DNA of 64,000 nt from contig JAIQFS010000009.1 in the NCBI GenBank assembly GCA_020073145.1, forward strand, positions 1 through 64,000. Direction: 5' to 3'. The first letter of the stretch is position 1; every line of letters begins with the position of its first letter. This DNA comes from Terriglobia bacterium (lineage in GTDB: Bacteria; Acidobacteriota; Terriglobia; Bryobacterales; Bryobacteraceae). Of this stretch, positions 14,663-21,768 are shown one piece after another. A model generated the notes under the pieces. That model saw nothing but the letters and a program-made list of their open reading frames with translations. It did not search any database and was not told the DNA's origin. The position numbers and the translations under genes were made by a program.

Positions 14663-15769
14663 TCACGATTCTTCCGTGATCCTGCCGTCTCTCCGTAGCC
14701 GAAGCGTCCTGCCCCGCCAGTCCACCGTCGACCCGAAGCATCCGCCCATCCAGACCGCGAACCCGAACAGATCTCGAAAAGGAATCAGCCAGAACCAGCG
14801 CCACACCTGCCGATCCTCCAGAATCACGCCCCCGGCCAGCGCGGCCGCCACCAGCCGCAGAGCCAGGGCCGCCGTTCCCGCCCACCACTGCCCCGCCAGG
14901 AAGGCGACCAGCGCCCAGACCGTCGCGTGGGTCACCACCGATCCGTAGTAGCCCGGCGGCTGCGACACGCGGATCGTGCGGGACCAGCGCAACTGGTGTC
15001 TCCACATTCCGCCCCACGATGCACGGCCGCCGCCTCCGGTTTCGACCACCGCCGAAGCGAATTCCACGCGGTAGCCGCGCGCGGCCACCCGCCGGCCCAG
15101 TTGATAGTCGTCAGCCAGATAATCGGCGATCGCTTCAAAGCCGCCGATCTCCCGCAGCGTCTCGGCCCGCACCGCCATGGTGGAGCCCAGCGCGAAATCC
15201 GCCACTCCCAGCAGCCGCGCCACCATCACGCTCGGCGCAAACTCGGTGGCGATTCCCAGGCCTTCGATCAGGGAAGGGAATGACCGCGCCGGCGCCCGAT
15301 ACAGGCAGGTCACCAGGCCTGTTTGCGGATTCGCGAACGGCGCCACCACCGAGCGCAGGTAACCGGGGCCGGCCACAATGTCGTCATCGTTCACCACCAG
15401 CAGACCGTATCGCGCCTGCCGGGCCAGTTCCGCCAGTACCGCGACCTTGGCATTCGGCGCATCCGGCCGGGCCACGATCGCGCGCAGGCTCCGCCCGGGA
15501 AATTCCTGCTGCAGCCGTTCCACTTCGGCGCGCGCGGGGTCGTCCGCATCCCCGAAGCCGAAAAGAATCTCGAATTCGGGATAGTCCTGCGCGGCATGCG
15601 AGCGGATGGCCTCGTACAGCCCTTCCTCGGTCCCATACATGGGCTTGAGGATGGAAACCGGCGGCAGGGCGAGCGGCCCGCTGGCGGACCTGCGCCACAG
15701 AATCGCCGCCACGATCGCCAGCAGGTAGTAGGCGGCCGCCGCCAACGCGGGCACGGCCAGCCCGATCAC
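14663..15769 (-). CDS. hpnI: Hopanoid-associated glycosyltransferase HpnI
   Basis: A 368-residue membrane glycosyltransferase of the GT21/ceramide-glucosyltransferase type. An N-terminal membrane helix precedes the GT-A domain with SILKPMYGTEEGL, the metal-binding acidic motif NDDDIV, and the processive-type DYLADDYQL and HQLRWSRTIR (a Q/RxxRW signature). Two or three C-terminal membrane helices follow. HpnI is known to transfer N-acetylglucosamine to bacteriohopanetetrol. I choose the GTG at 15769 because it overlaps the upstream stop as GTGA, the style used throughout this operon; a GTG at 15817 would add 16 residues and a 52-bp overlap. hpnJ lies upstream in the same operon, which supports the hopanoid assignment over generic ceramide glucosyltransferase. 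Confidence 0.85.
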   Translation of the reverse strand: MIGLAVPALAAAAYYLLAIVAAILWRRSASGPLALPPVSILKPMYGTEEGLYEAIRSHAAQDYPEFEILFGFGDADDPARAEVERLQQEFPGRSLRAIVARPDAPNAKVAVLAELARQARYGLLVVNDDDIVAGPGYLRSVVAPFANPQTGLVTCLYRAPARSFPSLIEGLGIATEFAPSVMVARLLGVADFALGSTMAVRAETLREIGGFEAIADYLADDYQLGRRVAARGYRVEFASAVVETGGGGRASWGGMWRHQLRWSRTIRVSQPPGYYGSVVTHATVWALVAFLAGQWWAGTAALALRLVAAALAGGVILEDRQVWRWFWLIPFRDLFGFAVWMGGCFGSTVDWRGRTLRLRRDGRITEES

Positions 15770-16128
15770 AGCGAGACCAGCGCCACGCCGCAGACCACCA
15801 GTGACGCCCCCGCCCACCGCAGCCAGTTCACCTGCTCGTGCAGCACGTATTTCGCGAGCACGGTCTCAAACACATAGGTGGCCGCCGACGCGGGCACTGC
15901 AAAACTGAGTTCGGAGACCGTCAACAATCCCAGGTAGGCGAAGAACGAAACCGCCATCGCCACCACCGATGTCACCACGTGCCAGTTGCGCGCCAGAACG
16001 GTCACCGCGCGGCCGATCGCACCCGGACGGAAATCGTGGATCTCGCCATGGCGTCGCATGCCCATGGCTTGCAGCACTTCGCCCACCGTGGTGGCGGCCA
16101 CCATGATTCCCAGCAGCACCCACTTCAT
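15766..16128 (-). CDS. SMR/EamA-like small transporter, second of a pair
   Basis: A 120-residue protein with four predicted membrane helices (MKWVLLGIMVAATTVGEVLQ; residues about 43-63; FAVPASAATYVFETVLAKYV; LRWAGASLVVCGVALVSL), the size and layout of small multidrug resistance proteins. Glu17 in the first helix sits about where EmrE has its essential Glu14. It overlaps the previous SMR gene by ATGA and hpnI by GTGA. Paired SMR-like proteins such as ArnE/ArnF move lipid-linked sugars across the inner membrane; between two hopanoid-modifying genes, flipping of a glycosylated hopanoid is a reasonable inference. The alternative is an ordinary drug/metabolite exporter. Confidence 0.8.
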   Translation of the reverse strand: MKWVLLGIMVAATTVGEVLQAMGMRRHGEIHDFRPGAIGRAVTVLARNWHVVTSVVAMAVSFFAYLGLLTVSELSFAVPASAATYVFETVLAKYVLHEQVNWLRWAGASLVVCGVALVSL

Positions 16129-16547
16129 CGGCTGCCTTCCGTGCCATCGGCGTTCGGACGCGTGGTTTGCGGCGTCGTGCCCCCGCCGACCAGCACGACT
16201 CCCAACATGATCAGCGCGATTCCTGCCCAGCGTGTCGTGGTGATCTGTTCGTGAAGCAGAACCCTTCCCGCGATCGCCACCAGCACATACCCGACGGCTG
16301 TCACCGGTAGCACATAGCTGAGGTCCGCCCAACTGAGCAGCGCCATCCGCGAGGCCAGCCAGAGAATGAGCAGCAGCACCCCCAGCGCCACTACCGGCCG
16401 AAACAAAACCGTGATGTAAGCCAGCGGCGTGGGTAATTCCGCCGGCATGCCCCACTTCAGAAGGAAATTGCCGGCGACGTTGGAGACGATCACCACCAAC
16501 GCGCAGACCCAGGTTTTCCAGCGCAACCGAGCCGATTCGCTGCTCAT
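16125..16547 (-). CDS. SMR/EamA-like small transporter, first of a pair
   Basis: A 140-residue four-helix membrane protein (VCALVVIVSNVAGNFLLKWG; RPVVALGVLLLILWLASRM; DLSYVLPVTAVGYVLVAIAG; WAGIALIMLGVVLVGGG) related to EamA/SMR transporters. It has no acidic residue in helix 1 where its partner has Glu, which fits an unequal heterodimer like ArnE/ArnF. The ATG at 16547 is used; a GTG at 16598 is possible but adds a polar 17-residue tail with no ribosome binding site. The gene starts 53 bp after hpnJ and overlaps the second transporter by ATGA. Confidence 0.8.
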   Translation of the reverse strand: MSSESARLRWKTWVCALVVIVSNVAGNFLLKWGMPAELPTPLAYITVLFRPVVALGVLLLILWLASRMALLSWADLSYVLPVTAVGYVLVAIAGRVLLHEQITTTRWAGIALIMLGVVLVGGGTTPQTTRPNADGTEGSR

Positions 16548-16600
16548 GTGCGGTGAAGACGTTCCAGCGGCGCCGGTCTGGTGCGCAGCGGCCGCCACGC

Positions 16601-18070
16601 TCAGTCGCCGGATACCGCGGCTGGCGCCGACGGGCGGGCGCTCTTGCTGGCCGTCACGAATTTCTTCCGCTTCGCGCGCAGCGCCATGTATTCCCGGGCT
16701 TCTTTGTAGAGCCGCTTCCGCTCGTACCCGTCGAACACGGCTTTCCGCATGATCCGCCAGGCGACCCGCGGCCGGAAGAAGTATTCGCCGTAAAAGCGCT
16801 CTACCCAGTCCACCAGGTCCGCTTGGTCCAGGCCCGGATAGGAAAAATTCGGAAGCTGATGCCCGGCGTCGTCCGACATGCTGCCATCAATCTTGATCAA
16901 CCCGTTGTTTTGCAGGTAATCGTACAGCTCCGTCCCGGGGTACGGTGCCGCGATCGAAACCTGAATGGTCTCGGTGTCCATCCGCTTGGCGAATTCAATG
17001 GTCGTGCGGATGGTTTCGTGTGATTCCCCGGGCAGCCCGATGATGTAATCGCCGTGGATCACCAGGCCGAGCTTCTTGCAGTTGGCCGTGAAGCGCGCGG
17101 CCATCTCGATGGTGGCGCCCTTCTTGATGTTCTTCAGAATCTGCTGTTCGCCCGATTCATACCCCACGATCAGCAGCCGGCAGCCGGCGTCTTTCATGGC
17201 CTTCAGCGTGTCGTAGTCGGTGGTGACGCGCGACGTGCACGACCAGGTGAAATTCAGCGGCTTCAGCTTCTTGCAGAGTTCGATCGTCCGTTCTTTGCGG
17301 TAATTGAAGGTATCGTCGTCGAAGAAGATTTCCTTGATGCCGGGGAACTGCTCGAGCGCATACCGCACTTCGTTGGCCACGTCGTCCGTGGAGCGCAGCC
17401 GCCAGCGGTGCCCCGAGGTGGTCTGCGGCCATAGACAAAACGTGCACATCGCCGGACATCCGCGCGAGGTGTAAAACGAAATGAACGGGTGTAGCAGGAA
17501 CGGAACCGTGTAGCGCGACACGTCCAGATCCCGATGATAGACCTTGGTCACCCAGGGCAGCTCGTCCAGATTCTCGATGGCGGGCCCCTCCGGGTTGTTG
17601 ATGATTTGTCCGTTCTTGCGATAACTGACGCCCGGAAGCTCCTCCAGCGGTTTTCCCTGGGCGTATTGCGCGATCTGGTAGTCGAACTCGCGCCGCACCA
17701 CGAAATCGATGGCTTTGCCCTGGCGCAGCGATTTCTCCGGCTCAGTCGTCACCGGCGGCCCGACGAACGCCACCTTCAGCTTCGGATTGGCGTCCTTCAT
17801 CCTCTCGGCGATCTTCAGATCCACCGTGAAGCCCGGCGTCGACGTGTACAGAACCAACAGCTCGAAATCGCCCGCCATCGCCACTGTTTGCTCGATCGAG
17901 ATCTTGTGCGGCGGCGCGTCCACCACTTTGCTGTCGGCCAGCAAGCCGGCCGGATAGCACAGCCACACCGGATACCAGTACGACTCGATCTCGCGCGAGG
18001 CGGGCCAGCGCGATCCGGCGCCGCCGTCGAAACCTTCAAACGACGGCGGATTCAGAAACAGTGTTCGCAT
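16601..18070 (-). CDS. hpnJ: Hopanoid-associated B12-binding radical SAM protein HpnJ
   Basis: A 489-residue radical SAM enzyme. The N-terminal part (MRTLFLNPPSFEGFDG to about residue 165) is a cobalamin-binding-like Rossmann domain. The radical SAM core follows with the cluster motif SRGCPAMCTFCLWP (CxxxCxxC) around residues 203-212, and IFFDDDTFN and VGYESGEQ further on. HpnJ is known to act after HpnI and HpnK, converting the glucosamine headgroup of bacteriohopanetetrol into a cyclitol ether by ring contraction. The strict match to the HpnJ start and the nearby hpnI support this over other B12-radical SAM families. No hpnK is in the window. A LolA-like gene lies 45 bp upstream on the same strand. 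Confidence 0.88.
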   Translation of the reverse strand: MRTLFLNPPSFEGFDGGAGSRWPASREIESYWYPVWLCYPAGLLADSKVVDAPPHKISIEQTVAMAGDFELLVLYTSTPGFTVDLKIAERMKDANPKLKVAFVGPPVTTEPEKSLRQGKAIDFVVRREFDYQIAQYAQGKPLEELPGVSYRKNGQIINNPEGPAIENLDELPWVTKVYHRDLDVSRYTVPFLLHPFISFYTSRGCPAMCTFCLWPQTTSGHRWRLRSTDDVANEVRYALEQFPGIKEIFFDDDTFNYRKERTIELCKKLKPLNFTWSCTSRVTTDYDTLKAMKDAGCRLLIVGYESGEQQILKNIKKGATIEMAARFTANCKKLGLVIHGDYIIGLPGESHETIRTTIEFAKRMDTETIQVSIAAPYPGTELYDYLQNNGLIKIDGSMSDDAGHQLPNFSYPGLDQADLVDWVERFYGEYFFRPRVAWRIMRKAVFDGYERKRLYKEAREYMALRAKRKKFVTASKSARPSAPAAVSGD

Positions 18071-18115
18071 GTGCTCTCCCAGGATTCGAAAGGGCGCCGT
18101 CGCGGCGCCGGCGCG

Positions 18116-18910
18116 TTACTGGCCGCCACCGGCGGCCACTCCCGTGCGCTGCGGGGCATCCACGGAAAAATTGCTGAAATCGATGGTCAATTCCGCCTTC
18201 CCTACCAGGCGGGTCTCTACTTCGCTTTGCACTTGCCGGGGCACCGAGATTCCGTCGCGAATCTCATAGGTGCGCGTAAACGCCACCCGCTTTAGAAAAA
18301 TCGAGGGGCTCTTCACCAGGGTGCCGGTTTCCTCGACCCGCAAATACGTCGCCGCGTCGATCCACAGCTCTCCCTTATACAGGCCCACTCGCTTCTTCTT
18401 CGGCGTGACCTGAAAGACATAGGTCTGCCGCCCGTCCGGTTCCACCGAGCCCTTGTACTTGAATTTGTAATTGGCGGGCGTCACTGCCATGGACGGCGCC
18501 TGGCTCTTTTGCGCCTCAATCTCCGCGGTCAAATAACGCGCAATCACCTGGTTCTTGATGGTGCCGTCCCCTTCGAAAAATAGGTGCTCGTACGTAATCC
18601 GGCCCAGCGCCGAAATGCGCCGAAGGGCGTGCAGCCGCCCCTGTTTCTTTAATTTGGGAAGCGAGGCCTGGATCTCCACGTCCATCGACGCGTTCTGGAT
18701 CGACAATTCCTGATCCCGCGTGGCCGCGCAGTAGCTTTCCACGATGGCGTCCGCCGGCGACGCCAGCGGCTCCGCCACCGCACTACCCGCGACAACCAGG
18801 AACAAGCCGAATAGGCAGAACTTCAATGAATGACCCCGTTTCCGAGATTGGGCACCAGAAACATTGAGTTTACCAGGATCAGAGGGCTGGAGCAATTCCA
18901 TTTCAGACAC
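18116..18910 (-). CDS. LolA/outer-membrane-lipoprotein-sorting-like exported protein
   Basis: A 264-residue exported protein: hydrophobic signal segment (KFCLFGLFLVVAGSAVA) followed by a beta-rich domain of about 200 residues (DAIVESYCAATRD, TYVFQVTPKKKRVGLYKGEL, WIDAATYLRVEETG). The pattern of an initial helix and then an incomplete barrel of long antiparallel strands resembles the LolA/LolB fold, which carries acyl chains through the periplasm. Similarity is only structural in feel, so the call is tentative. It is the first gene of the minus-strand set that continues with hpnJ, the SMR pair and hpnI. The start is uncertain: a GTG at 18910, an ATG at 18901 or a TTG closer to the signal peptide are all possible. 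Confidence 0.65.
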   Translation of the reverse strand: MSEMELLQPSDPGKLNVSGAQSRKRGHSLKFCLFGLFLVVAGSAVAEPLASPADAIVESYCAATRDQELSIQNASMDVEIQASLPKLKKQGRLHALRRISALGRITYEHLFFEGDGTIKNQVIARYLTAEIEAQKSQAPSMAVTPANYKFKYKGSVEPDGRQTYVFQVTPKKKRVGLYKGELWIDAATYLRVEETGTLVKSPSIFLKRVAFTRTYEIRDGISVPRQVQSEVETRLVGKAELTIDFSNFSVDAPQRTGVAAGGGQ

Positions 18911-19011
18911 ATCGCGCTGGAAGGATTACGGAGTTTCCCTGGGCCTGCGACCTTATTTTTGCAGGAAAACGCCGGATCACCCGCTCCCTCCCCCGGGTGC
19001 TACGCTTGGGC

Positions 19012-21768
19012 ATGGCCCGGTATCAGATTGAAACCGGCCGGCGTCCCCGCAAATCGCCGGCAGGCCGCATTACCCTCATCGTCCTTCTGCTGGTCCTGCT
19101 CGTGGGGGCCCGCTCCATTGCTTCCTACACCATCGATTTCCAATGGTGGAAAGAAATGGGTCAACTCAATACCTGGCTCAGCATGCTCACGTACAGCTTG
19201 GCCCCCGTGTTGGCCGCCACCCTTCTGGCGTTTGCCGTTCTCTGGATCGCTCACGCCCGCGCTGTCCGTTTTGCCGGCGCCCGTTTGCGCGAACACCGGA
19301 TCTACGCGCGCATCTCCGCCCTGGCGCTGCTGCTACTGGGATATGTGATTGCCGCCTCCTCGGTGGATACCTGGACTGTCGTTCGCTTCGCCGGCTCGCG
19401 CGGTCTACCGGCAGAAACCACTGCCTGGCATGATGCCGTGTTCGGCAAACCGCTTTCGTTTTATCTCTTCGATCTTCCTTTTTACGATCTACTGCGCAGC
19501 TATGTGCTCGCTCTGGCGGTAGTCTCGATCGTGCTTTATTGGCTGGCTGCGCGCGGCTGGCAACTGCGCCACCGGGTTTCCGAGATCCGCGATACCCAGC
19601 AGTTCGATCCGTCTCTGCTGCGGCTCGAGGGCGGCCTGGAATCGAAATTTCTTCGCGGCGCGGCGGTCGTCCTGCTGCTGGCCGTGGCCGTCAACTACTT
19701 CCTCGGCCGCTACGAGATGGTCTATAACGAACACGGCACCTTCCTGGTCGGCATCGATTATGTGGACCTCAACATTGGCCTGCCCCTGCAATGGCTGGTG
19801 ATTCTGGCCTGCTTTGCCGCCGCCGTCTTTGTGTGGATGGGCCGCTGGCTCTTCGCCGCCTCCATGGCCTTGTCGCTGGTGGTGGCATTTCTGGTTCCGC
19901 GCGCCGTCTCGGCCCTCTATGTCCGGCCCAACGAAATCTCGCTCGAGCAGCCCTATATCCAGACCCATATTCACGCCACCCGCAGCGCCTACGGCCTCGA
20001 ACAGCACGTTCGCGAAGTGGAATTCAAGGCGCAGCCCGACGCCTCCATCGACGCCTCCCTGCACCAGGCTACGCTCGATAACGTCCGTCTCTGGGACACC
20101 CGCGCCTTTCACGACACCATCACCCAGATTCAGGCTCTGCGCCCCTACTACGCTTTCCACGATAGCGACGTCGAGCGCTATACCATCGACGGCCAGTACC
20201 GCCAGGTCCTGCTCGCCCCGCGCGAACTCGATGTCTCCCAGCTTCCCGCCGGCGCCCGCAACTTCATCAATTCCGCTTTCATCTACACCCATGGCTATGG
20301 CATGGTGATGGCCCCCGTGAGTCAGATCACTCCCGACGGACTGCCGGTCCTGCTCATCGATAATGCTCCGGCCGAAGTCAAAGCCAAGAGCCTCAAACTC
20401 ACTCGGCCCGAGATCTACTACGGCGAGCTGACCCATGAGCCCGTCTTCGTCCACACCGCGCGCCCGGAATTTAACTATCCCTCCGGCGAGAAATATGAGA
20501 CTTCGCAATATGAGGGCAAGGGCGGCTTTCCCATTTCCTCCATCGCCATGCGCCTGGCCGCCGCCATCCGCGAAGGCGAGCCGAATATCCTGCTCACCGA
20601 CTATCTCACCGACAACAGCCGCATGATGATTCACCGCAAGGTCCGCGAGCGCTTGCAGGAACTGGCCGGCTTCTTGTCCTGGGATGAAGATCCGTATCTG
20701 GTGATCGACTCGAACGGACGGTTGGTGTGGATGGTGGACGGCTACACCACCTCCGATGTCCATCCTTATTCGCGCGCGCTCGATCTGGGCGATATGGGGC
20801 GCGTCAACTACATCCGCAACGCCATCAAGGCCACCGTCGACGCGTACGATGGCGAAACCCACATGTATATCTTCGCGCCCGACGATCCCATCATCACCGC
20901 CTACCAGCGCCTTTTCCCCACCCTGTTCAGTCCCGCCTCCGCCATGCCCGCCGACCTGCGGGCCCACGCGCGGTATCCGGAAATGCTGTTCCGCGTTCAG
21001 GCCGAGATCTACCGCACCTACCACATGCTCGATCCGCAGTCCTTCTATAACAAAGAAGACTTGTGGGATTTGGCCCGCCACGGCACCAGCCAGTCCGGAG
21101 GCGCTGACGTCGTCACCCCCACCTACGTCATGGCCTCGCTCCCCGGCCAGGACAAGGCCGAGTTCCTTCTCCTCATCCCGTTCACTCCGCGCAACAAGGA
21201 CAACCTCATCGGGCTGATGGTGGCCCGCTGCGATGGTCCGAACCTGGGCGACATGGTGGTCCTCCAGCTCTCCAAACAGGAGTTGATTTTCGGCCCCATG
21301 CAGATTGCCGCCCGCATCAACCAGGATCAGAATATCTCCAAGGACCTGACTCTGTGGAATCAGCAGGGCTCGCAGGTGCTGCGCGGCCAAACCCTGGTCC
21401 TGCCGGTCGGCAACACGTTTTTGTACGTCGACCCCATCTACATCCAGGCCACCGAGGCCCGCATGCCCCAGTTGAAGAAGATCGTCCTGGCTGTCGGCAA
21501 CCGCCTCATCTATGCTGACACCTACGATCAAGCCTTATCTCAGCTTTCGAGCGGCGCCCAGGAACTGGTGCGGCAGGCCAATGCGCCGCCCACGGTGTCG
21601 AATGCCCCGCCCGGAGCGGGGCCCGCCCGCCTCGAGCTGACTCCGGCCAACGACCCGCGCCTCCAGCGCGTCCGCGATCACCTGAAGCGTTACCGCGACC
21701 TCGCCGCCCAAGGCAAATGGTCCGAAGCCGGCAAGGAGCTCGAAGCCGTCGAGGCCGAAGTGAAATAG
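19012..21768 (+). CDS. UPF0182 family membrane protein
   Basis: A 918-residue protein of the UPF0182/COG1615 family. About seven membrane helices occupy the first 310 residues, with family-typical stretches DFQWWKEMGQLNTWLSMLTY and GKPLSFYLFDLPFYDLL. A large extracytoplasmic domain follows (IQALRPYYAFHDSDVERYTI, EISLEQPYIQTHI, EGKGGFPISS, VYLFPTLF-like region near residue 650) and a Pro/Ala-rich tail with a charged helical end. The family is widespread in Actinobacteria, Cyanobacteria and Acidobacteria and its biochemical role is unknown. The ATG at 19012 (MARYQIETGRRP) is preferred to an upstream in-frame start at 18997. It is divergent from the LolA-like gene, about 100 bp apart. Confidence 0.9.
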   Translation: MARYQIETGRRPRKSPAGRITLIVLLLVLLVGARSIASYTIDFQWWKEMGQLNTWLSMLTYSLAPVLAATLLAFAVLWIAHARAVRFAGARLREHRIYARISALALLLLGYVIAASSVDTWTVVRFAGSRGLPAETTAWHDAVFGKPLSFYLFDLPFYDLLRSYVLALAVVSIVLYWLAARGWQLRHRVSEIRDTQQFDPSLLRLEGGLESKFLRGAAVVLLLAVAVNYFLGRYEMVYNEHGTFLVGIDYVDLNIGLPLQWLVILACFAAAVFVWMGRWLFAASMALSLVVAFLVPRAVSALYVRPNEISLEQPYIQTHIHATRSAYGLEQHVREVEFKAQPDASIDASLHQATLDNVRLWDTRAFHDTITQIQALRPYYAFHDSDVERYTIDGQYRQVLLAPRELDVSQLPAGARNFINSAFIYTHGYGMVMAPVSQITPDGLPVLLIDNAPAEVKAKSLKLTRPEIYYGELTHEPVFVHTARPEFNYPSGEKYETSQYEGKGGFPISSIAMRLAAAIREGEPNILLTDYLTDNSRMMIHRKVRERLQELAGFLSWDEDPYLVIDSNGRLVWMVDGYTTSDVHPYSRALDLGDMGRVNYIRNAIKATVDAYDGETHMYIFAPDDPIITAYQRLFPTLFSPASAMPADLRAHARYPEMLFRVQAEIYRTYHMLDPQSFYNKEDLWDLARHGTSQSGGADVVTPTYVMASLPGQDKAEFLLLIPFTPRNKDNLIGLMVARCDGPNLGDMVVLQLSKQELIFGPMQIAARINQDQNISKDLTLWNQQGSQVLRGQTLVLPVGNTFLYVDPIYIQATEARMPQLKKIVLAVGNRLIYADTYDQALSQLSSGAQELVRQANAPPTVSNAPPGAGPARLELTPANDPRLQRVRDHLKRYRDLAAQGKWSEAGKELEAVEAEVK

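Follow-up and report, generated by a model that had tools for sequence, protein, structure and literature searches.

A free amine is present on bacteriohopanetetrol (BHT)-glucosamine and BHT cyclitol ether, and likewise on the 4-amino-4-deoxy-L-arabinose (Ara4N) lipid flipped by ArnE/ArnF and on the lysyl-phosphatidylglycerol flipped by MprF; comparison with both flippases is therefore natural. Hopanoids are sterol-like membrane lipids of bacteria. Composite hopanoids are made by the HpnI/HpnK/HpnJ pathway, and proteobacterial hpn loci also encode HpnL, an MprF-flippase-like protein whose function is described as not established in a 2025 paper (PMC12583986, available in part). Here we describe an operon at positions 14663–18910 of a 64,000-nucleotide stretch of DNA (the window) from a Terriglobia bacterium of the Bryobacteraceae (assembly GCA_020073145.1), in which genes for two small multidrug resistance (SMR)-type proteins, SMRa and SMRb, lie between hpnJ and hpnI. 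The pair probably forms a heterodimer, closest to ArnE, that stands in for HpnL by flipping a hopanoid glycolipid derived from HpnI.

An initial annotation, made from the letters of the window, knew of no earlier description of such a pair, and none was found here: the literature searched, in which subscription papers were mostly outside coverage, yielded neither a flippase protein for sugar-bearing hopanoids nor an SMR hopanoid flippase. SMR glycolipid flippases as such are already known; what appears to be new is an SMR pair as a hopanoid flippase.

Gene content of the operon

The window lies on contig C22 of a 6.3 Mb genome (G000). The five genes are all on the minus strand, in the order and orientation originally annotated:

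18116..18910, minus strand: LolA-like protein; on inspection its N-terminus looks like a signal sequence, with the mature part from ∼18772; predicted LolA/LolB-type fold
16601..18070, minus strand: hpnJ, radical SAM protein with a B12-binding domain, BHT cyclitol ether synthase family (TIGR03471, 777.9 bits)
16125..16598 (open reading frame, ORF), minus strand: SMRa, the first SMR-type protein, likely ATG start at 16547
15766..16128, minus strand: SMRb, the second SMR-type protein, small, four helices, 120 aa, loop charges fitting N-out/C-out, conserved Asp/Glu in the first transmembrane helix (TM1)
14663..15817 (ORF), minus strand: hpnI, glycosyltransferase, likely GTG start at 15769 giving 368 aa (TIGR03472, 363.6 bits)

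HpnI and HpnJ both pass their curated equivalog cut-offs (310 and 577.6 bits respectively). SMRa and SMRb matched solely EamA/TMEM234/SMR-type transporter models, and the EamA gathering score was exceeded by SMRb and missed by SMRa. The stop of SMRa and the start of SMRb overlap as ATGA at 16128–16125, and the stop of SMRb and the start of hpnI overlap as GTGA at 15769–15766; such overlaps are a usual sign of coupled translation, which may be expected here. Together with the EmrE-like model of SMRb described below, these features bear out the original reading of two SMR-type proteins in overlapping frames.

Linkage of the SMR pair to hpnJ and hpnI

In 200 genomes of the class, HpnJ was detected at E ≤ 1e-120 in 154 places in 151 genomes. 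One hundred class loci were taken with up to 6 kb per side, a non-random set comprising the 40 best-scoring besides the window's own and 60 picked for diversity, and the best 80 of 585 loci were taken from a survey of named genomes. The two sets overlap and hold 144 distinct SMR pairs in total (loci and genomes are cited below by L and G numbers).

Of the 100 class loci, 89 encoded both SMR domains on the same strand as hpnJ (two separate ORFs in 84; one ORF and a fusion in five), as did 69 of the 80 named loci, Myxococcota and Nitrospirota metagenome-assembled genomes (MAGs) among them. Granulicella and Silvibacterium also showed the order hpnJ-SMR-SMR. Within these 158 loci, the first SMR stop fell 300–700 bases past the hpnJ stop in 145, and a 4-base stop/start overlap joined the two SMR genes in 127. 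The operon arrangement is more than chance, because it recurs across genera and phyla, and the tie between the SMR pair and hpnI/hpnJ seen in the window thus holds elsewhere. Genome content agreed: SMR and HpnJ occurred together in 146 of the 200 genomes, HpnJ only in five, SMR only in nine and neither in 40. Because the genomes share ancestry and not all are complete, Fisher values overstate their independence.

Eleven class loci were without a pair. Two (L109 and L138) had a single SMR gene at a contig end, and five (L071, L078, L093, L098 and L124) had neither SMR nor hpnI; the genomes of L071, L078 and L124 contain a second hpnJ, with an SMR pair, and those of L093 and L098 an SMR pair at another site (L279 and L280). 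The other four are considered with the contrary evidence below. Eleven named loci were also pair-less, of which six (L169, L177, L193, L196, L203 and L226) reach a contig end within ∼1 kb of hpnJ; L155, L188, L189, L215 and L223 showed no full pair in the stretch examined, with one weak match in L215.

An earlier report refers to 'two additional genes' close to hpnJ of strain KBS83 (PMC5462960, available in part). In the KBS83 locus (L214) the SMR pair follows hpnJ and could be those two genes, although a trehalase gene also precedes hpnE. In L225, a record assigned to Verrucomicrobiota (Tous-C9LFEB), the SMR proteins group among Granulicella sequences, indicating transfer or mis-assignment.

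Fusion of SMRb to HpnI

SMRb was found in frame at the N-terminus of HpnI in seven hpnJ loci, five from the class and two from Myxococcota. The class fusions (L051, L060, L066, L115 and L123, all of family f6) are single frames of 526–596 residues with the SMR domain first (SMR E 1e-39 to 1e-43, HpnI E 1e-141 to 1e-153). In the two Myxococcota MAGs the SMR and HpnI domains span residues 151–276 and 299–678 (L212) and residues 6–130 and 153–519 (L227), and a further fusion was present in L268, a second SMR locus of G110 (SMR 26–153, HpnI 176–547). Class and Myxococcota fusion groups stand apart in the HpnI tree, and it is therefore most simply supposed that the fusion arose two or more times. 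Repeated fusion with HpnI is strong evidence of joint function. The topology is also compatible: HpnI, which from related transferases we take to start outside and to have one helix before its cytosolic domain, could accept an SMRb with its C-terminus outside.

Fold, conserved residues and relatives of the SMR proteins

The AlphaFold2 model of SMRb (pLDDT 88.4) shows a four-helix SMR/EmrE-like fold, for which the best Foldseek matches were EmrE and Gdx-Clo (TM to query 0.63–0.69; best E 0.015, none <0.001). SMRa and SMRb matched each other in profile–profile comparison (99.9%). Of six E. coli SMR proteins compared, ArnE came nearest to both subunits (28.2 and 33.4 bits, against 16.8 and 15.6 for the next). 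The initial annotation had seen the format of ArnE/ArnF in this pair, and the resemblance stands: two overlapping SMR genes lie within an operon making a sugar-bearing lipid, and SMRb aligns to ArnE by hhalign at 96.6%. However, with 22.5 and 24.9 bits both subunits fall short of the cut-off of 92 for the ArnE equivalog model NF011625, the partners here are hpnJ and hpnI, and the second subunit is fused to a glycosyltransferase in some lineages.

The central TM1 position is Asp or Glu in SMRb in 143 of the 144 pairs, another difference from ArnE/ArnF, whereas in SMRa it is Asn in 81, a partial likeness, and Asp in 58. Position 85 of the SMRa alignment is Asp or Glu in 144/144. The acidic residue of SMRb TM1 was paired by hhalign with Glu14 of EmrE (probability 43%) and with a Gln of ArnE (96.6%). 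Lipid SMR proteins often have Asn at the central position and are possibly not proton-coupled (PMC9574504, available in part). The present pair appears mixed, and the near-fixed acidic residue of SMRb could bind either the headgroup amine or a proton.

The loop charge bias of SMRb fits an N-out/C-out orientation in all 144 distinct pairs and that of SMRa is neutral; an antiparallel SMRa/SMRb dimer is a likely but hypothetical arrangement. In the SMR tree the second subunits form one group (branch support 84/99) apart from the E. coli SMR proteins, and the subunits sorted by position with two changes, where shuffling gave a mean of 24; co-inheritance of the pair would produce this pattern.

Distribution of HpnL

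HpnL was scored with TIGR03476 (threshold 195.65 bits). Four of 16 plasmid-collection records with hpnJ were examined from Proteobacteria (Paraburkholderia, Mycetohabitans, Caballeronia and Methylobacterium); HpnL over the cut-off lay near hpnI/hpnJ/hpnK in all four, and SMR in none. By contrast, HpnL over the cut-off was found in none of the 200 genomes of the class, and G000 gave no match at E ≤ 1e-10. The only HpnL-like gene near hpnJ among the 180 loci was in L223 (Omnitrophota), where hpnJ-hpnK-hpnI occur with no SMR pair and the gene lies ∼1.1 kb after hpnI (148 bits, under the cut-off). Like the SMR pair, HpnL is a membrane protein encoded close to the hpn genes, in its case to hpnI/hpnJ/hpnK of the Burkholderiaceae and Methylobacterium examined, but it belongs to a different, flippase-like/MprF-related protein family; some of the HpnL-type proteins examined also match the NCBIfam flippase-like model. 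These data are suggestive of replacement of HpnL by the SMR pair. In five genomes of family f5 (G042, G056, G096, G116 and G120) a weak HpnL-like gene (60–93 bits) adjoins an HpnK-like YdjC gene on a contig other than that of hpnJ.

hpnK and an unlinked YdjC homologue

The locus resembles the HpnI/HpnK/HpnJ pathway in its HpnI and HpnJ but differs in the absence of hpnK from the operon. This absence, pointed out in the initial annotation, is true of the locus but not the whole picture: the genome does contain one YdjC/HpnK homologue, unlinked, at C5:56465-57271, which scores 188.1 bits with TIGR03473, under the cut-off of 232.6, and 218.7 bits with the YdjC Pfam model, over 29.7; and in other lineages hpnK is inside the operon. 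The order hpnJ-hpnK-SMRa-SMRb-hpnI was seen in L199, L205, L206 and L211, with HpnK over the cut-off in the two tested (L199 288.8, L206 278.4 bits), and hpnK precedes the fused SMRb-HpnI in L212 and L227. In family f4 (L113, L114, L116 and L117) hpnI is followed by a gene for a YdjC protein, which in L116 scored 211 bits and so missed the HpnK cut-off.

In an alignment of 40 YdjC proteins including the G000 copy, two Asp, four His and one Glu columns were invariant (40/40); the Asp and His columns common to HpnK and ChbG are presumably the metal site. HpnJ and an HpnK-like protein (E ≤ 1e-3) occurred together in 143 of the 200 genomes, HpnJ only in eight, the HpnK-like protein only in 14 and neither in 35, and the HpnK cut-off was passed in eight genomes. 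From these sequences it is plausible that the unlinked YdjC protein is a substitute deacetylase in this genome. Co-occurrence was not accepted as proof that it is HpnK, because the G000 copy falls outside the betaproteobacterial HpnK clade, in the ChbG half of the tree, and because of the neighbour gene in L244–L247. In one half of the tree of 40 are 17 of the 22 unlinked proteins, including that of G000, the f4 operon copies and E. coli ChbG (on a long branch, its place unsure); in the other are betaproteobacterial HpnK, ten other operon copies and five unlinked proteins. L244–L247 are from four family f10 genomes in which YdjC adjoins a conserved gene, in L244, where tested, for a GT4-type glycosyltransferase, presumably akin to BshA.

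Upstream of the unlinked YdjC gene, in seven of eight loci from G000 (C5) and seven further family f1 genomes (L236–L243), lie genes from a conserved MlaE-ABC-MlaD set for MCE lipid transport, recognized by clustering and checked against Pfam for MlaE and ABC in G000 and for MlaD in G109; this neighbourhood might connect an MCE transporter with aminated hopanoids. One f1 genome, G169, encodes a strong HpnK on contig C6 (L145, 371 bits) and has squalene-hopene cyclase (SHC) and one SMR match, with no HpnJ match at E ≤ 1e-120.

The LolA-like protein and other neighbours

The LolA-like protein scored 26.2 bits with Pfam LolA_like (PF17131), short of the gathering score of 30. Its structural model (pLDDT 91.6) has a LolA/LolB-type fold, with Z-scores of 10.7 to 3bk5 and 4z48, 9.1 to 3buu and 9.1 to LolB (8cm1), and the same entries led a sequence-profile search (3bk5 E 0.001, 4z48 E 0.03). 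It thus shares with the LolA superfamily a predicted fold and an apparent signal sequence, but identity is 11–16%. Such a fold would be fit for lipid carrying, the role first proposed for it, but the distribution of the gene makes this the weaker part of the proposal. It was near hpnJ in 20 of the 100 class loci, these being 20 of the 40 from family f1, to which the window belongs, and none of the 60 others, and in 21 of the 80 named loci, with a gap of 0.5–2.9 kb in five of the 41. A general part in the system is not supported by these counts, and the gene is at most a lineage-specific addition, as within the class it is near hpnJ only in family f1.

Weak LolA-like genes (E 1e-6 to 2e-7) flank the second SMR-HpnI loci L271, L272, L275 and L276 of family f6, that of L271 scoring 22.9 bits, under the Pfam cut-off. 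The usual gene upstream of hpnJ in other families was considered as a diverged LolA and rejected, with no LolA profile match in 30/30 and one representative being OEP/TolC-type. Gene clusters near hpnJ elsewhere, mostly upstream, were of the outer-membrane efflux (OEP/TolC) type in 30 of 100 loci, HlyD-type in 24 and MacB-type in 21 (one representative of each tested).

In the window, a divergent ORF of 923 aa (18997–21768) encoding a UPF0182 membrane protein lies 86 bases from the LolA-like ORF. A second HpnI of G000, on contig C18 (360 bits; L044:11326-14259), is followed by a B12-binding radical SAM protein and lies ∼7 kb before SHC at C18:141587.

Evidence against a hopanoid flippase and alternative explanations

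Several observations weigh against the proposed role. The class loci L108, L112, L118 and L122, and L155 of the named set, have hpnJ and hpnI together without SMR, and no SMR match was obtained in five of the 151 HpnJ genomes (G020, G062, G084, G108 and G116), three of which are those of L112, L118 and L122; in the genome of L108 (G012) the SMR matches are weak and located elsewhere. No replacement transporter was found among eight neighbours tested in L108, L112 and L122. SMR pairs also adjoin HpnI without HpnJ (L281 and L282), and for nine of 20 further SMR pairs inspected HpnI was not found in the fetched stretch. The acidic central residue of SMRb is unlike the Asn often present in lipid SMR proteins (PMC9574504, available in part). 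Charge bias in SMRa was close to zero (positive in 47, zero in 41 and negative in 56 of 144), so that an orientation opposite to that of SMRb is conjectural. Sub-cut-off HpnL-like matches occurred in 22 of the 200 genomes, some of them with the SMR pair as well (for example G042, G056 and G096); the mutual exclusion is thus incomplete, and replacement of HpnL is suggested from few HpnL loci. Hopanoid transport is a proposal drawn from gene linkage, co-occurrence, fusion, predicted fold and the charge bias of SMRb.

The chief rival, which we regard as unlikely, is that hopanoids are not the cargo and that the pair flips some other lipid-linked (amino)sugar from HpnI-family transferases, for instance a polyprenyl- or glycerolipid-linked donor for a PMT_2/ArnT-type transferase. 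HpnI paralogues adjoin PMT_2-type (ArnT-like) genes in L092, L107 and L267, and in L267, where an epimerase gene and an SMR pair are also present, the gene arrangement is that of a sugar donor system of the ArnT type, which gives this explanation its place; it too tells against a hopanoid cargo. G008 (L281) encodes SMR-SMR-HpnI with neither SHC nor HpnJ, and ArnE, the closest named relative, flips undecaprenyl-P-Ara4N (PMC9574504, available in part). However, SHC is present in 150 of the 155 genomes with SMR (SMR only in five, SHC only in 10, neither in 35). The main loci carry hpnJ, in several lineages also hpnK, and some hold hpnE- or hpnD-like clusters (11 and 10 of the 100 class loci; the HpnE checked was over its cut-off and the HpnD under). 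A search for HpnN (E ≤ 1e-30) matched none of the 200 genomes, but its control likewise matched nowhere, so that absence of HpnN does not follow. No PMT_2-type gene was noted beside the window operon, the wider window not having been scanned for one. L092, L107 and L267 may represent a second, Arn-like sugar system.

It is improbable that the pair scaffolds or activates HpnI at the membrane with no transport. That SMRb has been joined repeatedly to the HpnI N-terminus would suit such a role, as would the occurrence of HpnI without an SMR pair in other lineages, but an anchor would hardly seem to need two SMR-type subunits, inherited together and each with a conserved acidic residue. An ordinary drug or polyamine SMR exporter placed in the operon by chance, to which the EmrE- and Gdx-Clo-like fold and the low-probability (43%) alignment with EmrE Glu14 might point, is very improbable and was rejected on linkage (158 of 180 loci, the sets overlapping), co-occurrence (SMR in 146 of 151 HpnJ genomes) and HpnI fusion, ArnE also being closer than EmrE, MdtI, MdtJ or Gdx.

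Proposed function and implications

We propose that SMRa and SMRb form one asymmetric, probably antiparallel heterodimer, which would flip the HpnI-derived hopanoid glycolipid across the inner membrane, out of the cytoplasmic leaflet and into the periplasmic one. HpnI would make the lipid, and a YdjC deacetylase (HpnK or, in this genome, perhaps the unlinked homologue) and HpnJ would modify the headgroup on the cytoplasmic side, so that the cargo may be BHT-N-acetylglucosamine or its deacetylated or HpnJ-converted amino form. In the family of the window the LolA-fold protein may then carry the lipid onward. The pair would fill the place that HpnL holds in proteobacterial hpn loci.

We suggest tentatively, at slightly less than even confidence, that a dedicated flippase is a standing part of the composite hopanoid pathway and was invented at least twice, as the MprF-like HpnL in Proteobacteria and as an SMR heterodimer in Acidobacteriota, Myxococcota and Nitrospirota, where fusion to HpnI would at times couple headgroup addition and flipping physically.

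A 2017 survey credits Acidobacteria of subdivisions 1 and 3 with hpnI and hpnJ but not hpnK, and hence with a seeming inability to produce BHT cyclitol ether (PMC5462960, available in part); the unlinked YdjC homologues reopen that statement. With a two-gene candidate that is joined to HpnI in some lineages and occupies the position of HpnL in others, the question of hopanoid flipping becomes testable, and the proposed function predicts a role for HpnL too. The matter bears on hopanoid biomarkers, which geochemists use as a record of bacterial groups.

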